Assembly (NCBI GenBank): GCA_016795505.1
Contig: JAEUHH010000014.1
Location: forward strand, 186,001 to 250,000
Direction: 5' to 3'
From: Verrucomicrobiales bacterium
GTDB taxonomy: Bacteria; Verrucomicrobiota; Verrucomicrobiia; Verrucomicrobiales; DEV007
DNA: 64,000 nt
The notes below the pieces were generated by a model. The model made no database searches. It worked only from the letters and a program-made list of their open reading frames with translations, and was not told where the DNA came from. Below, piece after piece: positions 3,155 to 46,541 of this stretch; position 1 is the first letter of the stretch, and each line of letters opens with the position of its first letter. The translations under genes were made by a program, and so were the position numbers.

Positions 3155-4402
3155 TCAGAAATCGAGGCGGAGACCCAGATAGGGCCCCTTGGTCACCATG
3201 TCGTAGGTGAACGAGCCGGAGCTGTAATCGACGCTGAGGTAGCGGTAGCCGATCTCCATGGTGGTCCGGTCATTGAGGGCATAACCGATGGCGCCGAAGG
3301 CGTTCCAGGTCAGGTCCGAGCTCACGCCAAAGCCGCCGATGTCACCGCGGGCCACCAGATGCCAGTCTTCCCACAGCTCGCAGCGGCCGCGGAATCCGAT
3401 GAAGGGGTCCGTCCACGCCTTCGACGCGGCCACGGGATTTTTCGGCACCCGGTCGTTGATTTCCCGTTCGATCGCCTTGGCCAGGCGCTTTTCCGCCTGC
3501 TCCAACCGGCGCTCGGCTTCGCGGCGGATTCTGGCGCGCGCTTCCGCCACCGCGGCGGAAGCCTGGGCGCGGGCGGCTTCGATCTCGGCATTCACCTTGG
3601 CGCTGACATAATCGCGGATGGTGTCGCGGATCGGACCGGATTGGGAAATCCCCACGCCGAATCCCGGGTCGCCGGAGCCGATCCCGTCGTCAATGCGGTC
3701 GCGGATGGCCTCTTTCACGGCTTCCACCTTTTCATGGACGCGGTCTTCGATCTCCGACACGGCATTCGCCTTCAGGTCAGCGATTTCCGACTCCAACCGG
3801 GCCACCAGACCGGGCAGGCGGCTCTGCACCTCCTTTTTGGCGGCCTCCGAGCCGCGATCCAGAATGCGGTCCGCCAGCGTGTTGCTGACCGACCTGACAC
3901 CCGCCGGGTCCAAGGCCAGCGACAGTTCCGTGCCCATGTAGAAATAGCGGGCGCCGGCGATGATCTCCAACCGCGCCCGGTCGGACTCGTAGAAGCGGTA
4001 GGTCAGAGCCCCTTCGGCCAGCACCTGCTCGACGCTCACGGAGACGTTGGAGATCAATTGCCCGGGCGGATCGCCGCCGACGGAGGCTTTCAGATACATC
4101 CCATCGAGGATGAAGCCGAGCTTGCCGCGCCGCGCTTCCAGCGTGGCGGCGCCGATCATGTCCAGATTCTTGAGAATGTCGTCGATCCCGGCCTCGGTGT
4201 GGGTTTCGATACCGCGCACCCCGATGGTGCCGTCGATCCCCGCCAGCCAGCCGGGCATGATCATTGACACTTCCCAGCCGGGATCAGTCGCAACGACCGG
4301 CGGCTCGACGACGGCGGGCTCCTGGCCCGCGTGGACCGTCGGCTGCGGGGCGATGAGCGCGATGGACCAAAGGAGAGGGACGAATCGGGTCGGTCGGATC
4401 AT
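3155..4402 (-). CDS. Outer-membrane beta-barrel with long helical insertion
   Basis: A 415-residue protein with a signal peptide ending near HAG at residue 26. Residues about 40-165 and 315-415 look like amphipathic beta strands of a small outer-membrane barrel (FIGFRGRCELWEDWHLVARG, then GYRYLSVDYSSGSFTYDMV). The C-terminus is L-D-F, with the terminal phenylalanine typical of barrel proteins. Residues about 165-310 are instead a highly charged Ala/Glu/Arg-rich helical region with two coiled-coil stretches split by a Gly/Pro linker (GIGSGDPGFGVG). A barrel interrupted by coiled coil is unusual; the helices could reach into the periplasm or outward. The ATG directly abuts a 22-bp palindromic repeat pair at 4403-4446, leaving no normal leader. 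Confidence 0.65.
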   Translation of the reverse strand: MIRPTRFVPLLWSIALIAPQPTVHAGQEPAVVEPPVVATDPGWEVSMIMPGWLAGIDGTIGVRGIETHTEAGIDDILKNLDMIGAATLEARRGKLGFILDGMYLKASVGGDPPGQLISNVSVSVEQVLAEGALTYRFYESDRARLEIIAGARYFYMGTELSLALDPAGVRSVSNTLADRILDRGSEAAKKEVQSRLPGLVARLESEIADLKANAVSEIEDRVHEKVEAVKEAIRDRIDDGIGSGDPGFGVGISQSGPIRDTIRDYVSAKVNAEIEAARAQASAAVAEARARIRREAERRLEQAEKRLAKAIEREINDRVPKNPVAASKAWTDPFIGFRGRCELWEDWHLVARGDIGGFGVSSDLTWNAFGAIGYALNDRTTMEIGYRYLSVDYSSGSFTYDMVTKGPYLGLRLDF

Positions 4403-4446
4403 GATGAGACAGGGTTGGATCGGAGATGAAACAGGGTTGGATCGGA
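4403..4446 (-). repeat. 22-bp palindromic element, two tandem units (site A)
   Basis: Two units, 4403-4424 and 4425-4446, each GATGARACAGGGTTGGATCG plus two more bases. Read on the minus strand, the core is ACCCTGT flanked by GATC-type arms, and the last unit ends exactly at the start codon of the barrel gene (4402). The same element occurs at 17710, 25201, 36291 and 46498. Confidence 0.8.
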
Positions 4447-4480
4447 ATCCAGTTTGGCCGGGTAGGACGGGCTCGGGGTC

Positions 4481-6838
4481 TTACTTCTGCTCCACGGTCA
4501 CGTGCTGGATTTTGCCGGTAAAGGCGTTGTTGAACTGCGGATAGTCGGGCGACACGTTGGTTTCGGCATCAATACCCACGTCCGCGCCTTCGTCACCGGA
4601 AAAGGAGAAGGGTTGGGTCTTGGGGATGTGGCCCTCCGCGACTTTCTGGCCATTCACGCTGAGGATCGACTTGCCGCCCGTGCCGGGTTTCGCCTCGTCG
4701 GGGATGAACTCGTAGAGGATGGTGTGCTTGCCGGGCGGCAGGGCTGCGTCGGAGCCGATGTTGGTGCGCTCGAGGGCGAAGAAGTTGTATTCGTGGCGCG
4801 GCTTGCCGTCTTTGAAGTAGAGGGTCCAGCCGCCGAAGTAGCCGGCCTGGGCGATCACCACGCCGTTCGTCTGGCCGTCCTTGATCTCGACCACGGCCTC
4901 GACGGTGTGGTGGCGGCCTTTCACGTTGATGAAGGCGTTTTCCATCATGCCGGTCATGCCGGGATAGACAGTGAGGGACTTGCGTCCGGCCAACAGGTCG
5001 GCGCGACCGGCGATCTGCGGGTCGAAGCGCTCGCTGCGTCGGTCGTCGATCGGGAAGACGTGGTTGCGGATGCCTTCCTTTTCAAACACGGCCTGCAGTT
5101 CCTTGAGTTTCTCGGGATTCTCGGCGGCCAGGTTGTTGGACTGGCTGAAGTCCTTTTCCACGTGATACAGCTCCCAGACGTCGTCCTTGATCGGCGGCAG
5201 GGGCACCATCAGCCACGGGATGGAATGCCGGGTCGCGGCGACCCAGCCCTCGTGGTAGATGGCGCGGTTGCCGAACATTTCGAAATACTGGGTGGTGCGG
5301 CGGTCCTCCGCTCCGGCGTCGGCGGCGGCGTAGAGCATCGAGACGCCGTCCATGGGGCGCTGTTCGACGCCGTTCACGGTCTTCGGCTGCGGGATCTTCG
5401 CCGCTTCGAGCGCGGTGGGGGCGACGTCGATGACGTGGTGGAACTGGCTGCGCACGCTGCCGTCTCCCTTGATGCCCTTCGGCCAGTGCATGACCATGCC
5501 GTTGCGGGTGCCGCCAAAGTGCGAGGCCACCTGCTTGGTCCACTGGAAGGGGGTGTTGGTCGCCCAAGCCCAGCCGATCGCGTAGTGCGGGAAGGTGGTG
5601 GGACCGCCCCAAGTGTCGATGTGATCCATCATCTGCTCGGCTTTGCCGACGATGCCGTTGAGGGCCATCATCTCGTTGTAGGTGCCCTCTGGGCCGCCCT
5701 CGGCGCTGGCGCCGTTGTCGCCGACGATGTAGAAAAACAGCGTGTTCTCCAGCGCGCCGATCTGATCGAGTTGCGCGACGAGGCGACCGACTTCGTGGTC
5801 GGTGTGCTCGGCAAAGCCGGCAAAGGTCTCCATCTGTTTTTCAAACAGGCGCTTCTGTTCCGCGTTCATGTCGTCCCAAGCGGGGATCTCCTTGGGGCGG
5901 GGCGTGAGCTTCGTGTCCGGGGGGATGACGCCGAGCGTTTTCTGCCGCGCGAAGGTTTCCTCGCGCAGTTTGTCCCAACCGCCGGCGAACTGGCCTTTGT
6001 ACTTGGCGGGCCACTCCTGTGGCACATGATGCGGGGCATGCGTCGCGCCGGGTGCAAAGTAGACGTAGAAGGGCTTGTCCGGCGTCAGCGATTTCTGCGC
6101 GCTGACCCACTGGATGGCCTTGTCGGTCATGTCGGTGGTGAAGTGGTAGCCGGGTGTCTGCGGCGGCTCCACGCGGACCACGCCGTCGTAGATGGCCGGC
6201 GCCCACTGGTTGGTCTCGCCGCCGATGAAGCCGTAAAACTTGTCAAAGCCCGAGCCGGTCGGCCAGCGATCGTAGGGGCCGGAGACCGACACCTCCCAGG
6301 GCGGCGTCTCGTGGTATTTGCCGAAGGCGGCGGTGCTGAAGCCATTCTGCCGCAGGATCTCAGCCAGCGTGGTGATCTCGCGCGGGCGGATGCCGGTGTT
6401 GCCGGGGAAGCCGGTGGCCAGTTCCATGATCGCCCCCGCGTTGTTGGCGTGGTGATTGTGCCCCGTCAGCAGTGCCACCCGGGTCGGGCTGCACAGCGCG
6501 GTGGTGTGGAAGCGGTTGAACTTCAGGCCCTGCGCCGCCAGCTTATCCAGGGTCGGCATCTGGATGGGGCCGCCGAAGGCACTGCTCGCGCCGAAGCCGA
6601 TGTCGTCGATGAGCACGATGACCACATTGGGCGCTCCTGCGGGGGCTTTGACCTCGAAGCGCGGCGGGGCCTTCGCATCGCGGGCGTCGAGCGTGGTGAT
6701 GGGCTCGCGCTTGGGTTCGTGGATGGGCAGCACCGTCCGGTCGAGGGAATCGGTCGGGCTTTGGGCGGAGACGATGCCGACTGCCGCCGCGAGGAGGGCG
6801 AGCACCGGGAACGGACTGGAGTGGCGGGTGGATTTCAT
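4481..6838 (-). CDS. Secreted arylsulfatase
   Basis: A 785-residue sulfatase with an N-terminal signal peptide (FPVLALLAAAVGIVSAQ), so it acts in the periplasm or outside. NVVIVLIDDIGFG supplies the first metal-binding aspartates. LCSPTRVALLTGHN is the C-x-P-x-R sulfatase signature, whose cysteine must be converted to formylglycine by a maturase that is not in this window. GKYHE and the later DNGASAEGG and FGGTRNGM segments are further active-site elements. About 150 C-terminal residues after the sulfatase core form a beta-rich domain ending in VTVEQK. The length fits the large PAS-like arylsulfatases. It is the last gene of the minus-strand locus at 4.5-13.5 kb. Substrate not predictable. 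Confidence 0.9.
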   Translation of the reverse strand: MKSTRHSSPFPVLALLAAAVGIVSAQSPTDSLDRTVLPIHEPKREPITTLDARDAKAPPRFEVKAPAGAPNVVIVLIDDIGFGASSAFGGPIQMPTLDKLAAQGLKFNRFHTTALCSPTRVALLTGHNHHANNAGAIMELATGFPGNTGIRPREITTLAEILRQNGFSTAAFGKYHETPPWEVSVSGPYDRWPTGSGFDKFYGFIGGETNQWAPAIYDGVVRVEPPQTPGYHFTTDMTDKAIQWVSAQKSLTPDKPFYVYFAPGATHAPHHVPQEWPAKYKGQFAGGWDKLREETFARQKTLGVIPPDTKLTPRPKEIPAWDDMNAEQKRLFEKQMETFAGFAEHTDHEVGRLVAQLDQIGALENTLFFYIVGDNGASAEGGPEGTYNEMMALNGIVGKAEQMMDHIDTWGGPTTFPHYAIGWAWATNTPFQWTKQVASHFGGTRNGMVMHWPKGIKGDGSVRSQFHHVIDVAPTALEAAKIPQPKTVNGVEQRPMDGVSMLYAAADAGAEDRRTTQYFEMFGNRAIYHEGWVAATRHSIPWLMVPLPPIKDDVWELYHVEKDFSQSNNLAAENPEKLKELQAVFEKEGIRNHVFPIDDRRSERFDPQIAGRADLLAGRKSLTVYPGMTGMMENAFINVKGRHHTVEAVVEIKDGQTNGVVIAQAGYFGGWTLYFKDGKPRHEYNFFALERTNIGSDAALPPGKHTILYEFIPDEAKPGTGGKSILSVNGQKVAEGHIPKTQPFSFSGDEGADVGIDAETNVSPDYPQFNNAFTGKIQHVTVEQK

Positions 6839-17455: not shown

Positions 17456-17665
17456 CAGGTCTGGACCGCACTCAGTCAGGTTGCGACCCAAAGAAACCAG
17501 GTCTGAACCAAACCATGTCAGGTCTTGACCAAATAAAATGCAGTCCAGACCGAATAGAATTCGGTCCAGACCGAAAGGTAACAGGTCCAGACCAAATTGA
17601 TTCAGGTCGCGACCTGATTAGATTCGGTCCAGACCGGAAAATATCAGGTCCAGACCGATAACGGC
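17456..17665. repeat. Ten-unit array of palindromic cores, 21-bp period
   Basis: Ten consecutive 21-bp units start at 17456 and repeat exactly every 21 bases, with a partial eleventh at 17666. Each has a core close to CAGGTCCAGACC, whose GGTC-NN-GACC part is an inverted repeat, followed by a variable A/T-rich 9-base spacer. The cores vary (TCTG, TGCG, CTTG, GCGC in the middle) but the spacing does not. The 21-bp period is two helical turns, which would place every core on the same DNA face. Confidence 0.85.
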
Positions 17666-17709
17666 CAGGTCCGGGGTTGGCGGCGTCATTCCGGGGGATG
17701 GGGCGATCC

Positions 17710-17775
17710 GATCCAACCCTGTTGGATCGGCGATCAGACCCTGTCTGATCGGAGTAGAGACCCTGTTGGATCGGG
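17710..17775. repeat. 22-bp palindromic element, three tandem units (site B)
   Basis: Units 17710-17731, 17732-17753 and 17754-17775. The first two are perfect inverted repeats, GATCCAAC-CCT-GTTGGATC and GATCAGAC-CCT-GTCTGATC: 8-bp arms, 3-nt loop, then a GG-x tail. The third has a decayed left arm (GTAGAGAC). Confidence 0.85.
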
Positions 17776-18025: not shown

Positions 18026-20041
18026 CTATTGGGCGACGACGAGGGCGAACTGGCACCAGAAGACGCACTCGCCGTAGGCTTCGAGCGCGGTGATCTTGTC
18101 GTTGGCGGGTCCGTCGCGGAAGGCGGTGGCCAACTGGTAGGAAAACCGGGCCGACTCGGGGATGAAGCCTAGCTGTTCCCGGCAACGCGCGGCGACTTCG
18201 CGGCAGCGACGCTCGCCCTGGTTGAGCTGGTGGCGGAGGGCGGTGGGATTGCCGAAGTCGGAGAGGGCATTGTTGGCATCGAACTGGGGGCCGAGGCAGT
18301 ACCACTTGTTGGACAGGCTGGAGAGGCGCTGGTAGGCATAGACGCCGGCGCCGAGCCCGAGCAGGGAGTCGGCGGCGGTGTGCTGGGCGGTGTCGCCCTG
18401 CTGGAGGCTGGCCGCGATGCGGGTGGCATCCATCACGCTGGTGAAGTCGCCCTCGCGCAGGGTGAGGATTTCCTCCAGTTGGGCGGGGGACATCTCGCCG
18501 TTGTCGAGCACGGGCTGGACGACGAGGGCCATGAAGTAATCCTTGGCGGCAAAGGCTGCCGACGCGTAGCCGCTGGCGAGCCGGCTGAGCACGGCGGGGT
18601 CGGCTTTTTTCTCAAGGCCCTGGGGATTGGCGAGCAGCAGGTTGCGCTCGGCGATTTCGACCTGGGAGGCGGAGAGGGAGTACCACAGGTGGGGCTGGAC
18701 GAGGGATTTGACGAGCATCTGGTAGACCTGGGGATCGTCGAGGCTGGCCTGTCCCTGGTTCACGGCTTCGAGGATCTGGGTGGCCTGACTGCGGGCGTTT
18801 TTGGCCTGATTCAGGAAGCCGTAACCCTGCACGTAGTTCGCGAGGCCGGAGATGGCGGCGATGGTGCCGTCGAGCGACTCGCCGAGGGCCTGGTCTGAGA
18901 ATCGCTGGTAGACGGTCTCCATGCGCTGCTCGACTTCGGCGCGCTGCTGGATGAGCTGGCTCATGGCATTCACGTCGCCCCGGGACAGGGGCAGGGAGAT
19001 CTCCAACTGGGCCTCGATGGCATTGAGCAGGGCGGTGGCTTCGACGTGCCGACGCCAGGCAGCGGCGACCTGGCCGCCCTGCAGGTGGCTGTCGCCGTCC
19101 GCGTAAAGCTGCTGGGCTTCGGCGATCATGGGCCGCAGGGGATCGGCGACGGCGAGCTGTCCGGCGGCCTGGTAGTCGGCGAAGGCTTGCTCGATGCGGC
19201 GACCGAGGGCCTGGCTCTGGCTGGCCCAGTGCCCGACATCCTGGGTCAGGGAGGCGCGGACGGCGGGGTCCAGCTCCATGTCGCGCTCATCGACCGGGGT
19301 GGGGCGATCGAGGGGTTTTCCGGTGAGGAACTCGTAGGCGTCCCAGAGATCGCGGATCTCGACGACTTCGAGGCCGAGGGCGCGGCCGAAGTCGTTCACA
19401 TCGACGAGTTGCTGGCTTTTCAGGTCCATGCTCATGCGGTTCCCGATGGGATAGCCGAAGCGTTTGAACCCTTTGGCGGCGGCGCCCTGCATTTTCTGGG
19501 GGATGCCGCCGACCGGGCCGGCGGTGCCGTCCTGGTTGACCGCGCCGGTCATGGTGGAGTCGGCGCGCACGTCGTCTCCGCGCAGCAGGGCGGTGAAGGT
19601 GGCGGTCATGAGCATGCCGGCGGAAGGACCGTCGACAAGTCCGCCGAGGTCGAGCATGAAGCGGGCGTCGGCGATGTCCATCTCGAGCACGGAGCAGGCA
19701 TTGAGCGCGGCCATCCAGGCGGCACCGACGAACTGCTGTCCGGTGCCGCTGGAGAACTGCTGGGTGACGCCGACGGAGGGCCGACTGCGGGTATTGGGCT
19801 CGACGATGAGCAGGCAGGGGCTGGTGCCGCCGGTGGGCGGGTCGCCATCGGCAAAATAAACCGCGTGGACTTCGGCTTCGCGCCTCTGGGTGACGGCGGT
19901 GGGCGAGGCGGCGGGCTCGGCCGGGCCGGGTGTTTGGGTATCGCCGATGAGTTTTCCGAGCAATCCGCCTCCCGACTGGGCGGATGCGGGGAGCGCGGCG
20001 AGAATGATGGGGAGGGAAAGGAGGCAGAGGCGCAGTTTCAT
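18026..20041 (-). CDS. Secreted Lon-type (S16) protease domain protein
   Basis: A 671-residue protein starting at 20041, with a signal peptide (CLLSLPIILAALPASA). Residues about 55-230 resemble the proteolytic domain of Lon: LVDGPSAGMLM carries the serine (S140) and GGIPQKMQGAAAKG the lysine (K183). They are 43 residues apart, as are S679 and K722 of E. coli Lon. There is no AAA+ ATPase domain. The remaining 440 residues are helical and unassigned, with YADGDSHLQGGQVAAAWRRH suggesting TPR-like packing. The signal peptide implies an ATP-independent, Lon-like peptidase in the periplasm. It follows the lipocalin-like gene by 34 bp and miaB on the same strand. Confidence 0.8.
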   Translation of the reverse strand: MKLRLCLLSLPIILAALPASAQSGGGLLGKLIGDTQTPGPAEPAASPTAVTQRREAEVHAVYFADGDPPTGGTSPCLLIVEPNTRSRPSVGVTQQFSSGTGQQFVGAAWMAALNACSVLEMDIADARFMLDLGGLVDGPSAGMLMTATFTALLRGDDVRADSTMTGAVNQDGTAGPVGGIPQKMQGAAAKGFKRFGYPIGNRMSMDLKSQQLVDVNDFGRALGLEVVEIRDLWDAYEFLTGKPLDRPTPVDERDMELDPAVRASLTQDVGHWASQSQALGRRIEQAFADYQAAGQLAVADPLRPMIAEAQQLYADGDSHLQGGQVAAAWRRHVEATALLNAIEAQLEISLPLSRGDVNAMSQLIQQRAEVEQRMETVYQRFSDQALGESLDGTIAAISGLANYVQGYGFLNQAKNARSQATQILEAVNQGQASLDDPQVYQMLVKSLVQPHLWYSLSASQVEIAERNLLLANPQGLEKKADPAVLSRLASGYASAAFAAKDYFMALVVQPVLDNGEMSPAQLEEILTLREGDFTSVMDATRIAASLQQGDTAQHTAADSLLGLGAGVYAYQRLSSLSNKWYCLGPQFDANNALSDFGNPTALRHQLNQGERRCREVAARCREQLGFIPESARFSYQLATAFRDGPANDKITALEAYGECVFWCQFALVVAQ

Positions 20042-20075: not shown

Positions 20076-21674
20076 TCACTGGTTGGGCTGCTCGCGGGCG
20101 CGCTCGAAGACATTTTCCGAGCCGTCGCCGCCGCGCAGGGTCAGGCTGTCGGCGGCAACCTGATATTGGGCGACGGCGTTCCAAGTGCCGTTGTAGAGGT
20201 AGAGCACGGCCTGTTTGGCGCACCAATGGCTCTGCTCGATGGCGGTCTGCTCCTGGGTGCGGAAGGCCTGCTCGGTGCCGAAGAGATAGGTGCCATCCTC
20301 GGCGAGGACCAGGATCGATGGCTCGCGGTCCAGGTAGGTGCCGGCGGTGCCGTTGCTGTCGAAGTCGACCCGGTATTTCTCCGGCAGGATCCAGACTCCC
20401 ACCAGGGCTGGCTCGATGGTGCCCGGTGCCTGTCCAGTCGGTGCGGGAACGGGGGCCGGCGCCGGGGCGGGTCCGGGCTGAGTGGTGGATGCGGCGGGAT
20501 CGGGCTGCCGGGCGAGGCTCACCTGCCCGGTGCCGAAGTCGATGCTCAGGGTGTTGGGATCGACCAGCCGGATCGGGAAGGCGGCCTCCTGCTGATTTCC
20601 GATCGGGAGCGTGTAGAGCACGCCGTCGGCGATGCGGTAGGTGCCTTCGTTCTGCTGGACGGGGGCATTCTGCGGGGCGAGCCGGATGCCGTAGTTCGCA
20701 TCGTCGTAAAAGGCGAGGGTCATGGCGATGGTGCCCTCCAGGATGCCGCTCCACACCCCGATCAGGGGATTGGCCGGCATGGCGGCCGGTGTCTGGCCCG
20801 CCGGAGCCGGCTGAGGCGCCTGGGGAGACGGTGCGGGCTGGCCGGGCGAGGCCGGCGGCGGCAGATTGATCACCAGACCGCCGCCGGGCAGCCCCGGGAC
20901 CGCCGGCGGGGCGGGGGGTGTGGCGGCGGGGCTGTCGACGAGCGCAAGTACGGCGGTCTCGTCGCCATCCTGGATCGTCATCTGGGTGGCGCTGTCGAGT
21001 CGGTAGGCGATCTCGGTCTCGGCGGTCGATCCCCGGGGTTTCAAAAACAGCCGGCTTTCCTCCCGGCGGTAGGTGCCGGTCACGATCTGCCGTTTTCCGC
21101 CCTGGCCGACGGCCATTTCGTAGGAGCCATCCGGGCCCAGGGTGAGCTCGATCTCTGATCCGGCCAGGGTGCCGCGCCATTTGCCGACCACGGTGGCGGC
21201 ACTCTCGCGATGCAGCACCATTTCATTGCCGCCGAGGGTCAGGGAGAGCCGTTCGCCCTCAATGTGGGCGGCGGCACGGGTCGCGGCGCTGGCTTCCGCT
21301 CCGTCGGCACGGAGGACCAGGGTGTCGCCGGTGAATTCGTAGGTGCCCGACTCGCTGAGTTTACGGCCAAGTTGCTCCACATCGAGCCGGTAACGGCCAT
21401 CGTCGGCGAGGGCGAGGCGGGTGACGTTCCCACCACTCTGGCTGGTGCTCCAGATGCCCACCTCGGGCGCCGCGGTGCCGGCCTCCGGGGTGGTCAGGAC
21501 CTGCTGGAGGAGGGACGAGGTCTTTTTCGGCTTTTCCCCGACGAGCTTGCCGAGGGGCGAGGAGCGGACGGTGGGATTGAGTTCGGCCTCGGCTTGGGAG
21601 CGGGCGTCTCCCGGCGGGGTGAGCAGCAGCAGCGACAGGATGAGGGCGAGTGGGTGCGACGGTGGCTGGCTCAT
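20076..21674 (-). CDS. Secreted protein with repeated lipocalin-like domains
   Basis: A 532-residue protein from ATG 21674, with a signal peptide (LALILSLLLLTPPGDA). It contains at least four beta-rich blocks, each opening with a G-x-W motif (VGIWSTS, VGKWRGT, IGVWSGI, VGVWILP). Each then runs through a G-x-Y strand (GTYEFTGDTLVLR, GSYEMAVG, GTYRIADG, GTYLFGTE), a pattern seen in lipocalin-like small barrels. Two Pro/Ala/Gln-rich linkers separate the blocks. Function unknown; ligand or polymer binding is possible. It lies between miaB and the Lon-like protease and probably works with the latter. Confidence 0.6.
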   Translation of the reverse strand: MSQPPSHPLALILSLLLLTPPGDARSQAEAELNPTVRSSPLGKLVGEKPKKTSSLLQQVLTTPEAGTAAPEVGIWSTSQSGGNVTRLALADDGRYRLDVEQLGRKLSESGTYEFTGDTLVLRADGAEASAATRAAAHIEGERLSLTLGGNEMVLHRESAATVVGKWRGTLAGSEIELTLGPDGSYEMAVGQGGKRQIVTGTYRREESRLFLKPRGSTAETEIAYRLDSATQMTIQDGDETAVLALVDSPAATPPAPPAVPGLPGGGLVINLPPPASPGQPAPSPQAPQPAPAGQTPAAMPANPLIGVWSGILEGTIAMTLAFYDDANYGIRLAPQNAPVQQNEGTYRIADGVLYTLPIGNQQEAAFPIRLVDPNTLSIDFGTGQVSLARQPDPAASTTQPGPAPAPAPVPAPTGQAPGTIEPALVGVWILPEKYRVDFDSNGTAGTYLDREPSILVLAEDGTYLFGTEQAFRTQEQTAIEQSHWCAKQAVLYLYNGTWNAVAQYQVAADSLTLRGGDGSENVFERAREQPNQ

Positions 21675-23255: not shown

Positions 23256-24209
23256 TCAGGCGTCGCGCAGCCACCGGCGGCATTCCGCTTCGGTCTCGAA
23301 GAAAAGGAGCGCCTCCCCGAAAGCCAGCAGTTTCTCCTCCGGCAGGCGGCGCAGCTTCGGCTCCGCGGTTTTTGCCAAGCCGGGGAACTTCCGCTCCAGC
23401 AATCGCAAGGCGAAGGCCAGTTCGCCCTCGGAACGGCCTTCCTCAAGACCTTTCAGCTTGCCGAGTTCGACAAAGGGATTGAGCAACTGTGGCATGGGTG
23501 CGAGGGCGGGTTCTTCGAGGGAGAGCATACGCACACGGCGCTCCAACTGCAAGAGCTGCTCGCCCTCCAGAGGCGTGTAATGGCGGACAAAGGCCGACGC
23601 GGCGTCCAGTTCCGCCGGAGTCAGGCGCTGCCGGAGGGCTTCGGCCAGCGTCGAGACGATCGCATCGACTTGCTGCTCGGGGCGCAGCTTCATCAGGGCG
23701 GTCAGGGCGAGTGCGGCGACATTGGCGCTCTCCAGATGGGGCCGGGGATCCATGCGGCGGAAATGCAACACCGGGCATTTCACCTGAATGCCCGCCGCTT
23801 TCCCGAATTTCCACGACAGGGAGCCGGGCTGGCGGGTCTCCGGCTTCGGATACGTGAGCAGCAGCACGGGCATCACCGGCATGTGGTAGCGGATGGCATC
23901 CCGCAGAGCATACTCTCCGATCCTCGCCAGAGCGTGGGTCTCGGGGCGATTCTGGCTTTCGATGTGAATCAGGAAGGCGGTGTCGCGATCCTGCCACTTC
24001 ACCTTTACCAGCAGGTCCCCCGAGCGCCGGGGCCGTTTGCCGGACCGGGGATGCTCCTTGTCGAGATACTCCGCCGCCGAGAAATCCGCAAAGCCGAGCA
24101 CCTCGGGCACGAACGCGCGGAAGAACTCCGGCAGCAGGCGCGCCTGCGACAGCAGATCCTTGATCAGATCGTCATGCGTGGGCGGCTTGTCTGATTCGCT
24201 CGATTTCAT
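23256..24209 (-). CDS. Rpn/YhgA-type PD-(D/E)XK nuclease family protein
   Basis: A 317-residue protein from ATG 24209. It opens with THDDLIKDLLSQARLLPEFF and continues with the Rpn/transposase-YhgA-like nuclease fold: GDLLVKVKWQ and TAFLIHIESQNRPE carry the D...E-x-Q residues of the PD-(D/E)XK core. The C-terminal part (LLLERKFPGL, LEEGRSEGELA) matches the DUF4351-type helical tail. E. coli Rpn proteins are DNA endonucleases that promote RecA-independent recombination; that role is inferred here. It is divergent from the XerC/D gene with 85 bp between the starts. No transposon ends were seen. Confidence 0.75.
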   Translation of the reverse strand: MKSSESDKPPTHDDLIKDLLSQARLLPEFFRAFVPEVLGFADFSAAEYLDKEHPRSGKRPRRSGDLLVKVKWQDRDTAFLIHIESQNRPETHALARIGEYALRDAIRYHMPVMPVLLLTYPKPETRQPGSLSWKFGKAAGIQVKCPVLHFRRMDPRPHLESANVAALALTALMKLRPEQQVDAIVSTLAEALRQRLTPAELDAASAFVRHYTPLEGEQLLQLERRVRMLSLEEPALAPMPQLLNPFVELGKLKGLEEGRSEGELAFALRLLERKFPGLAKTAEPKLRRLPEEKLLAFGEALLFFETEAECRRWLRDA

Positions 24210-24294
24210 CACCAGTCTGACCGATACTCTGGGAGAATCCGGAAAATGCCAAGCCCGATTCCGCCGGCCGGACTGGCCCGGCGACCTCAGCCGT

Positions 24295-25185
24295 ATGCAC
24301 GCCGCCATCGATACCTTCATCCTCTACCTCGCCACCGAGCGCGGGCTGTCGGAGAACTATCAGCTCTCCACCCGACAGTCGCTGGAGGACTTCGCCACCT
24401 GGGCGGAGAAAGAGTGCGGCGTCACCGAGCCGGGAGCCGTGACGATCGACCAGCTCACCGCCTTTCTCGCCGGGCGCAAACGCGACGGGCTGGCCGCCTC
24501 CAGCCTGCGCCTCATCGTCATCGCGCTGAAGATCTTCTTCCGCTTTCTCGCTGCCCGAAAGTTCCTCGCGGAGGATGTCGCCGCGCGCCTCGACTCTCCG
24601 CGCCTGGAGCGTTATCTCCCCGAGACCCTCAACGAGCCGGGCGTGCGGCAACTGCTCGAGTCGATCGACCCGTTTCAGCCGCTCGGCCGCCGCGACCGGG
24701 CCATGCTGGAGCTGCTCTATGCCAGCGGTCTGCGCGTGTCCGAGCTGACGAATGCCCGCCTGGAGGCCCTGCACCTCGACGAGGGCGTGATCCGCGTGAC
24801 CGGCAAGGGCAACAAAACCCGGATCGTTCCGGTCGGTTCCGTCGCCTGCGCCGCGATCCGCGATTATCTGGATTACGAGCGGCCGAATCTGGTCGGGCGG
24901 AAGACCGGCAGCCACGTTTTCCTCAACATCCGCGGCGGCCGGCTGACCACCCAGCGCGTCTGGCAGATCGTCAAGGAGCGGGCCAAGCTCGCCGGCATCG
25001 ACACGAATGTCTACCCGCACCTGCTGCGCCACTCCTTTGCCACCCATCTGCTGGGCAATGGCGCCGACCTGCGCATCATCCAGGAGTTGCTGGGGCACGC
25101 CGACATCGCGACGACCCAGATCTACACCCACGTCGATCAGAAGCGCCTGCGGCAGGTCCACCGGCAGTTCCACCCCCGCGGCTGA
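24295..25185 (+). CDS. xerD: Tyrosine recombinase XerC/XerD
   Basis: A 296-residue tyrosine recombinase of normal Xer length. Residues 1-85 are the SAM-like core-binding domain. All catalytic residues are present: R147 (SGLRVSEL), K171 (TGKGNKTR), H242 and R245 (HLLRHSFATHLL), H268 (LGHADI) and the nucleophile Y277 (TQIYTHV). It probably resolves chromosome dimers at dif with FtsK, which is in the same window at 33293. XerC or XerD cannot be separated without comparison. I took ATG 24295; an open frame extends upstream with no homology. It ends 15 bp before a 22-bp palindromic repeat pair. Confidence 0.93.
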   Translation: MHAAIDTFILYLATERGLSENYQLSTRQSLEDFATWAEKECGVTEPGAVTIDQLTAFLAGRKRDGLAASSLRLIVIALKIFFRFLAARKFLAEDVAARLDSPRLERYLPETLNEPGVRQLLESIDPFQPLGRRDRAMLELLYASGLRVSELTNARLEALHLDEGVIRVTGKGNKTRIVPVGSVACAAIRDYLDYERPNLVGRKTGSHVFLNIRGGRLTTQRVWQIVKERAKLAGIDTNVYPHLLRHSFATHLLGNGADLRIIQELLGHADIATTQIYTHVDQKRLRQVHRQFHPRG

Positions 25186-25200: not shown

Positions 25201-25244
25201 GATCAGACAGGGTATGATCTCCGATCAGACCCTGTTTCATCGGA
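25201..25244. repeat. 22-bp palindromic element, two tandem units (site C)
   Basis: Units 25201-25222 (GATCAGACAGGGTATGATCT plus CC) and 25223-25244 (GATCAGACCCTGTTTCATCG plus GA). The two units carry the asymmetric core in opposite orientations. They lie between the stop codon of the recombinase and the tetR promoter. Confidence 0.8.
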
Positions 25245-36073: not shown

Positions 36074-36290
36074 GTCGAAACGGTAGTCGGTGGTCAGAGG
36101 GGCTCAAAGGGGAGGGGATTCACCCGCGGGTTCGTCGGGGAGAAGAACTGGCTTTCTTATAAATTCCAGAATGAATGAGAGGTCTATTCGGGCGAGAAAA
36201 ATGATAGCCTCCGCAATAATTTCGATCAACGAATATCTTGGATTTCTTTAAGTTCTCAAAATTTCGGTTATTTTCCCGGTTCGGCTTTCC

Positions 36291-36334
36291 GATCCAACCC
36301 TGTTGCATCTCCGCATGAACCCTGTCCGATCGTT
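36291..36334. repeat. 22-bp palindromic element, two tandem units (site D)
   Basis: Units 36291-36312 and 36313-36334. The second is degenerate on its left arm and contains the manA start codon at 36315, so the first six codons of manA derive from the repeat. Confidence 0.75.
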
Positions 36335-46497: not shown

Positions 46498-46541
46498 GAT
46501 GCAACAGGGTTGGATCTCCGATCAGACAGGGTCTCATCGGA
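46498..46541. repeat. 22-bp palindromic element, two tandem units (site E)
   Basis: Units 46498-46519 (GATGCAACAGGGTTGGATCT plus CC) and 46520-46541 (GATCAGACAGGGTCTCATCG plus GA), 80 bp before the aconitase start. Confidence 0.8.

Follow-up and report, generated by a model that had tools for sequence, protein, structure and literature searches.

A predicted exported Lon-type protease domain without an ATPase, with a helical C-terminal region, in a Verrucomicrobiales bacterium

The gene designated P0001 lies on the minus strand of the window, which is the whole 64,000-nucleotide stretch of DNA analyzed. We interpreted its product as an exported, motor-less Lon-type Ser-Lys protease that would cut without ATP, with a helical region that would bind substrates or assemble the enzyme, and its gene as probably acquired horizontally. 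The probability of this reading was put at about two in three. The activity, oligomeric state and substrate of the protein are what we infer. The features concerned are as follows.

18026..20041, minus strand, stop included: P0001, predicted exported Lon-type (S16) P-domain protein of 671 aa (ORF, Pfam and phmmer)
19979..20041, minus strand: predicted signal peptide of P0001, residues 1-21 (by eye; cleavage at an A-x-A site ahead of Q22)
19307..19876, minus strand: P domain of P0001, approximately residues 56-245 (Pfam match at 137-205 and model of residues 50-253)
19622..19624, minus strand: putative catalytic Ser140 of P0001, corresponding to S679 of E. coli Lon (phmmer alignment; S in 14 of 14 family members)
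19493..19495, minus strand: putative catalytic Lys183 of P0001, corresponding to K722 of E. coli Lon (phmmer alignment; K in 14 of 14 family members)
18029..19306, minus strand: C-terminal region of P0001, residues 246-671, all helical by low-confidence prediction, no Pfam family, homologous within the family
20076..21674, minus strand: P0002, putative exported protein with NlpE/TIGR03066-type beta domains, upstream of P0001 and co-directional, 34 bp before it

The P0001 reading frame runs from M1 at 20041 to the stop codon at 18026-18028, the same coordinates as in the first-pass annotation of this DNA. An alternative in-frame ATG is possible at 20113; by eye, the signal peptide starts from 20041. 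This peptide, MKLRLCLLSLPIILAALPASA, would be cleaved before QS, and the signal sequence with its A-x-A site, as judged by eye, agreed with the one proposed earlier. It is followed by a Pro/Ala-rich linker, the P domain and 426 residues predicted to be helical. This suggested that P0001 is exported through Sec to the periplasm.

The Pfam model Lon_C (PF05362) matched residues 137-205 of P0001 with 36.7 bits (cut-off 21.1; E 4.3e-9), and it matched all 14 members of the family described below at E <= 0.01. In phmmer, P0001 found the E. coli Lon structures 1rr9_A (E 1.1e-7) and 6u5z_A (E 7.9e-7). The family profile matched Lon in the PDB at E 2.3e-18, and profile-profile comparison with the LonA of kin genomes gave E 5.5e-17 over 124 columns. 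These columns are confined to the second half of the P domain; the first half was not alignable. The matches confirmed a Lon-type P domain in P0001 far above chance.

The DGPSAG motif supplies S140 and the GGIPQKMQG motif K183, 43 residues apart. Both were aligned by phmmer with S679 and K722 of E. coli Lon, as had been proposed from the sequence. The Ser, the Lys, T165, D137 and the 43-residue spacing were invariant in the alignment columns of all 14 family members. On the other hand, the position after TG, which is Glu in LonA, was A, T or S in all 14, and this counts against our reading.

The claim that Walker motifs are lacking also stood. No GxxxxGK[ST] pattern (Walker A) was found anywhere in the P0001 sequence, and the Pfam scan, run on P0001 and on the 14 members, gave no AAA family. 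The Lon equivalogs of NCBIfam (TIGR00763, TIGR00764, TIGR02902 and TIGR02903) gave P0001 19.8-37 bits, against cut-offs of 516.6-723.3.

Residues 50-253 were modeled template-free from three alignment rows (from the window and the Chloroflexota relative L005), with a pLDDT of 65 and a pTM of 0.64. By blocks, pLDDT was mostly 58-93 in the second half and low (33-63) in the first. With Foldseek, the PDB yielded 141 matches (E <= 0.001), the best 50 listed being all Lon or BrxL. VIA-align superimposed residues 6-195 of the model on E. coli Lon 593-775 (Z 9.8, rmsd 3.8, 157 aligned), and its best 50 listed entries all belonged to the Lon superfamily (Lon, BrxL, RadA). A Lon P-domain topology, named beforehand as the feature to look for, was present in the predicted structure by both programs, at low confidence for the first half.

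The full-length model was poor (pLDDT 44). With it, the best Foldseek match had an E of 0.25 and no Lon was among the 50 matches listed; in VIA-align, Lon P domains (Z 8.7) were mixed in with helical rows. A fold for the helical region was sought in those rows (designed repeats, PhoU, BAR) and rejected, for such matches may reflect mere common helix packing.

Fourteen members of the P0001 family were found, nine in Verrucomicrobiota (its own phylum) and five in Chloroflexota. The assignment of the own phylum came from a marker, a Verru_Chthon_A protein encoded in this genome (TIGR02600, 456 bits, cut-off 332.3); the model hit 1 of 39 genomes of the phylum, namely this one, and 0 of 14 controls. 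A search of 190 relatives gave matches in 76, mostly weak and to other P-domain proteins including Lon; one protein (G097) was kept besides the P0001 gene itself. A scan of genome contigs added one relative, L005, from an Anaerolineae (Chloroflexota) MAG, with 49% identity over the P domain. The search of 387 genomes of the own phylum yielded 53 matches, of which eight were kept (E <= 3.4e-27, own genome counted), and that of 400 genomes of the L005 phylum yielded 92, of which five were kept (E <= 3.0e-41, that of L005 counted). In both searches, the remaining matches were mostly weak ones to P domains. All 14 members make up the alignment used here (A4).

By eye, most members carry a signal sequence or a lipobox. 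In Chloroflexota, lipoboxes were seen in L085, L086 and L087, and in the first frame of the L005 gene, which has a frame break; L088 has a plain signal sequence. This suggested that most Chloroflexota members may be lipid-anchored surface proteins.

The C-terminal helical regions of the two subclades matched each other at E 7.2e-6 (174 columns), and the family is therefore defined over its full length. Pfam and NCBIfam have no model for the family as a whole; those matching all 14 members are Lon-type and cover only the P domain. Viral contigs contained no P0001 homologue, and a second search there gave 51 pattern stretches, none of which was confirmed. The single plasmid record that matched was an annotated Lon. 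P0001 belongs to a rare, undescribed family common to two bacterial phyla.

The placement of Lon P domains beside AAA+ domains in the cytoplasm, assumed in the first-pass annotation, was too narrow. YlbL of B. subtilis and SepM of streptococci belong to the S16 proteases, are exported and have no ATPase, and each acts on a single substrate: one pheromone for SepM, YneA for YlbL (PMC6051672, PMC11197336). MtaLonC, a hexamer of the Lon P-domain type, breaks down unfolded proteins processively and needs no ATP (PMC3391209). In a 2008 survey, 39 of 117 S16 proteins already consisted of Lon_C alone and one was PDZ-Lon_C (PMC2605481), so motor-less P domains as such were known.

YlbL and SepM (Firmicutes, Actinobacteria) resemble P0001 in a P domain placed outside the cytoplasm, a Ser-Lys dyad and the lack of an ATPase. 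They differ in their PDZ domain and in a membrane segment at the N-terminus, whereas P0001 has the P domain first and then about 420 helical residues. No PDZ was found in the Pfam scan of P0001 or the 14 members, and P0001 scored 24.5 bits with the SepM/YlbL model NF041438 (cut-off 200). The putative catalytic residues of YlbL are needed in vivo, but the protein purified without its membrane segment had no protease activity in vitro, according to the available text (PMC6051672). An isolated exported P domain may thus need a partner or the membrane.

LonC (MtaLonC, or TTC1975 peptidase; PDB 4fwd and others) is an ATP-independent S16 protease on unfolded proteins, and P0001 would by analogy share the independence of ATP. 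P0001 differs from MtaLonC, whose large N-terminal part includes a degenerate AAA-like module, and whose export is not reported in the available part of PMC3391209. No such module precedes the P domain of P0001, where only about 35 residues separate it from the signal peptide. The family profile matched a LonC structure weakly (E 0.004). LonA and LonB share the P domain and the catalytic dyad; P0001 is without their N domain and AAA+ module, and is predicted to be exported.

Archaeal COG1750 proteins may be relatives of the family; if true, this would lower its novelty. Nothing on COG1750 was found in the open-licence PMC literature searched. We take tg2111 of Thermococcus gammatolerans to be linked to COG1750/S16. 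It resembles P0001 in its annotation, as a putative extracellular archaeal serine protease (PMC2718504). Exported S16 proteases as such are known already; the architecture of P0001, an exported P domain with a helical region, was found undescribed in the open-licence PMC literature searched.

In the mechanism that we prefer, P0001 would be exported by Sec, and its P domain would cut through the Ser-Lys dyad without ATP, probably as a ring-like oligomer, as in Lon biochemistry. Cutting without ATP would limit its substrates to flexible, unfolded or specifically presented polypeptides. From its place in the layout, the fused region of about 420 aa may replace the AAA+ and N domains of Lon (or the PDZ of YlbL and SepM), binding substrates or assembling the enzyme.

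The model would be a fused version of the CtpA-LbcA arrangement of Pseudomonas aeruginosa, in which a helical-repeat lipoprotein presents substrates to a periplasmic protease (PMC11021448, available part), with protease and helical adaptor in one chain. The two differ in that CtpA is an unrelated S41 protease and its adaptor is a separate lipoprotein. An ATP-independent, secreted S16-like peptidase with a helical region had been suggested at first pass. The P domain, the predicted export, the missing ATPase and the helices held; the independence of ATP is soundly reasoned. Envelope quality control, the role then suggested, is just one possible role, and general clearance and the processing of a specific partner were not separated by the evidence.

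The alternative that survives best, although unlikely, is that P0001 is a narrow processing protease that acts on one exported partner, such as P0002, to mature or inactivate it, in the manner of SepM and YlbL with their single substrates. P0002, which appears by eye to be exported, is a candidate partner or substrate, and its spacing and strand suggest a possible operon with P0001. Both are rare in kin when the own genome is counted: P0002 had a relative in 1 of 57 genomes (its own, and none of the 56 others), and the P0001 family was present in 2 of the 190 relatives. Against it, among the neighbors seen at the other family loci, which differ (a Sel1-repeat gene in 2 of 12 and a protein-kinase gene in 2 of 12), no partner is conserved. 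A short motif, LGKL[IV]G[DE], shared after the signal peptides of P0001 and P0002 was dropped, as 2248 of 20000 shuffled N-termini reached its alignment score. As a DNA pattern, it matched the genome only at these two places (control 0), but it had been chosen post hoc.

At the other loci, the protein-kinase gene is divergent from the family gene in L081 and L083, among 12 loci read. An exported Sel1-repeat gene directly follows the S16 gene in L082 (1861-4044) and L084 (1582-3765), with Pfam run on L082 only; its product is a candidate separate adaptor.

P domains that do not cut exist: those of RadA and BrxL, which are among the fold matches, are not known to have protease activity. That the P domain of P0001 has lost its cutting activity, like that of RadA, and that the protein serves for binding or as a scaffold through its helical part is conceivable but improbable. 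A degenerate paralogue in the second exported group described below (GPAAA for GPSAA) speaks for it. Against it, the Ser, the Lys and their spacing are kept in 14 of 14 diverged members, which is not expected of a dead site. Least probable is that the signal peptide, judged by eye and with an alternative in-frame start upstream, was misread and that P0001 acts in the cytoplasm beside an AAA+ partner: lipoboxes stand at the same place in members from another phylum (Chloroflexota), the N-terminal residues ahead of the P domain are not conserved in other respects (top-residue fraction 0.252, vs 0.535 in the P domain), and no AAA gene was recognized directly beside P0001 within the window.

Returning to the exported protease, its gene is rare, being absent from 3 of 3 congeners (86-90% complete) besides its presence in only two of the 190 relatives, and was thus probably acquired. 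In the tree, P0001 joined L007 (97/96). This pair grouped with the five rows from Chloroflexota (93/86, not starred); the seven remaining Verrucomicrobiota rows lay elsewhere. The simplest explanation is horizontal transfer, which is probable, not proven. The GC and GC3 of the gene were not outstanding.

The gene before P0002 is miaB (NCBIfam TIGR01574), conserved in the congeners (84%). The P0002-P0001 pair was not beside miaB there: no window match was found for about 7 kb in G001 and about 2.6 kb in G003, and the G002 contig ends. A DUF4351 ORF (window 23256-24320) separates miaB from a tyrosine-recombinase-like gene (identified by eye); in all three congeners (G001-G003) these two genes adjoin, with no such ORF between them. 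This ORF is a second lineage-specific insertion adjoining miaB.

A Lon_C search of 40 genomes of the same taxonomic family gave 83 matches: 20 LonA, P0001 and 62 others. All 62 were read, 10 of them from the loci of that search itself, and signal sequences were called by a simple hydrophobicity rule. Nineteen, spread over 15 of the 40 genomes, have DGPSA, a signal sequence by the rule and no Walker A ahead of the domain. Two more with DGPSA failed the rule, one of which (L125) has a lipobox by eye. Five of the remaining 41 passed it: two were false, with internal starts (L121, L138), and three were exported relatives without the exact motif (the first gene of L126, L154 and L158). This second exported group amounts to 19 to 21 proteins in these 40 close-kin genomes.

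In the tree it formed a group of its own next to LonA (74/92; 8 of 21 included). Shared ancestry of its C-terminal region with the helical region of P0001 was looked for and not found (probability 0.2, E 0.31).

At L126 (G025:C443; record 4291-4506 and 5891-6142), the degenerate paralogue stands directly before an intact exported P-domain gene, possibly as an active/inactive protease pair. L154 and L158 have GESFS instead of DGPSA and keep the GGxxxK stretch.

Lon is the textbook example of proteolysis coupled to an ATP motor in the cytoplasm. We suggest tentatively, at slightly less than even odds, that exported motor-less Lon-type proteases form a broad, unrecognized layer of ATP-free proteolysis outside it. 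This layer would consist of a rare helical-adaptor family common to Verrucomicrobiota and Chloroflexota by gene transfer, and a separate Verrucomicrobiales radiation that has a C-terminal region of its own, with degenerate paralogues adjacent. The cutting domain of Lon would then have been repeatedly detached, exported and re-partnered, an example of rewiring where ATP is unavailable. The proteins found, with an invariant dyad and soluble domains, are a defined set for the study of ATP-free Lon chemistry and of envelope proteolysis in little-studied phyla.

Directly downstream of P0001 (window 17522-17677) is an array of a 21-bp unit with GGTCCAGACC-like boxes. A unit of 21-22 bp near GATCNRACAGGGTYKGATCGG occurs at window 17708-17774, 4403-4445, 25201-25241, 36289-36309 and 46498-46540, frequently in tandem or in facing pairs about 22 bp apart. 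It had 11 matches in the window against 0.11 expected, and its 16-base core had 274 exact matches in the genome (reversed control 0). The GATCNRACAGGGTYKGATCGG-like unit is an interspersed repeat of the host genome.
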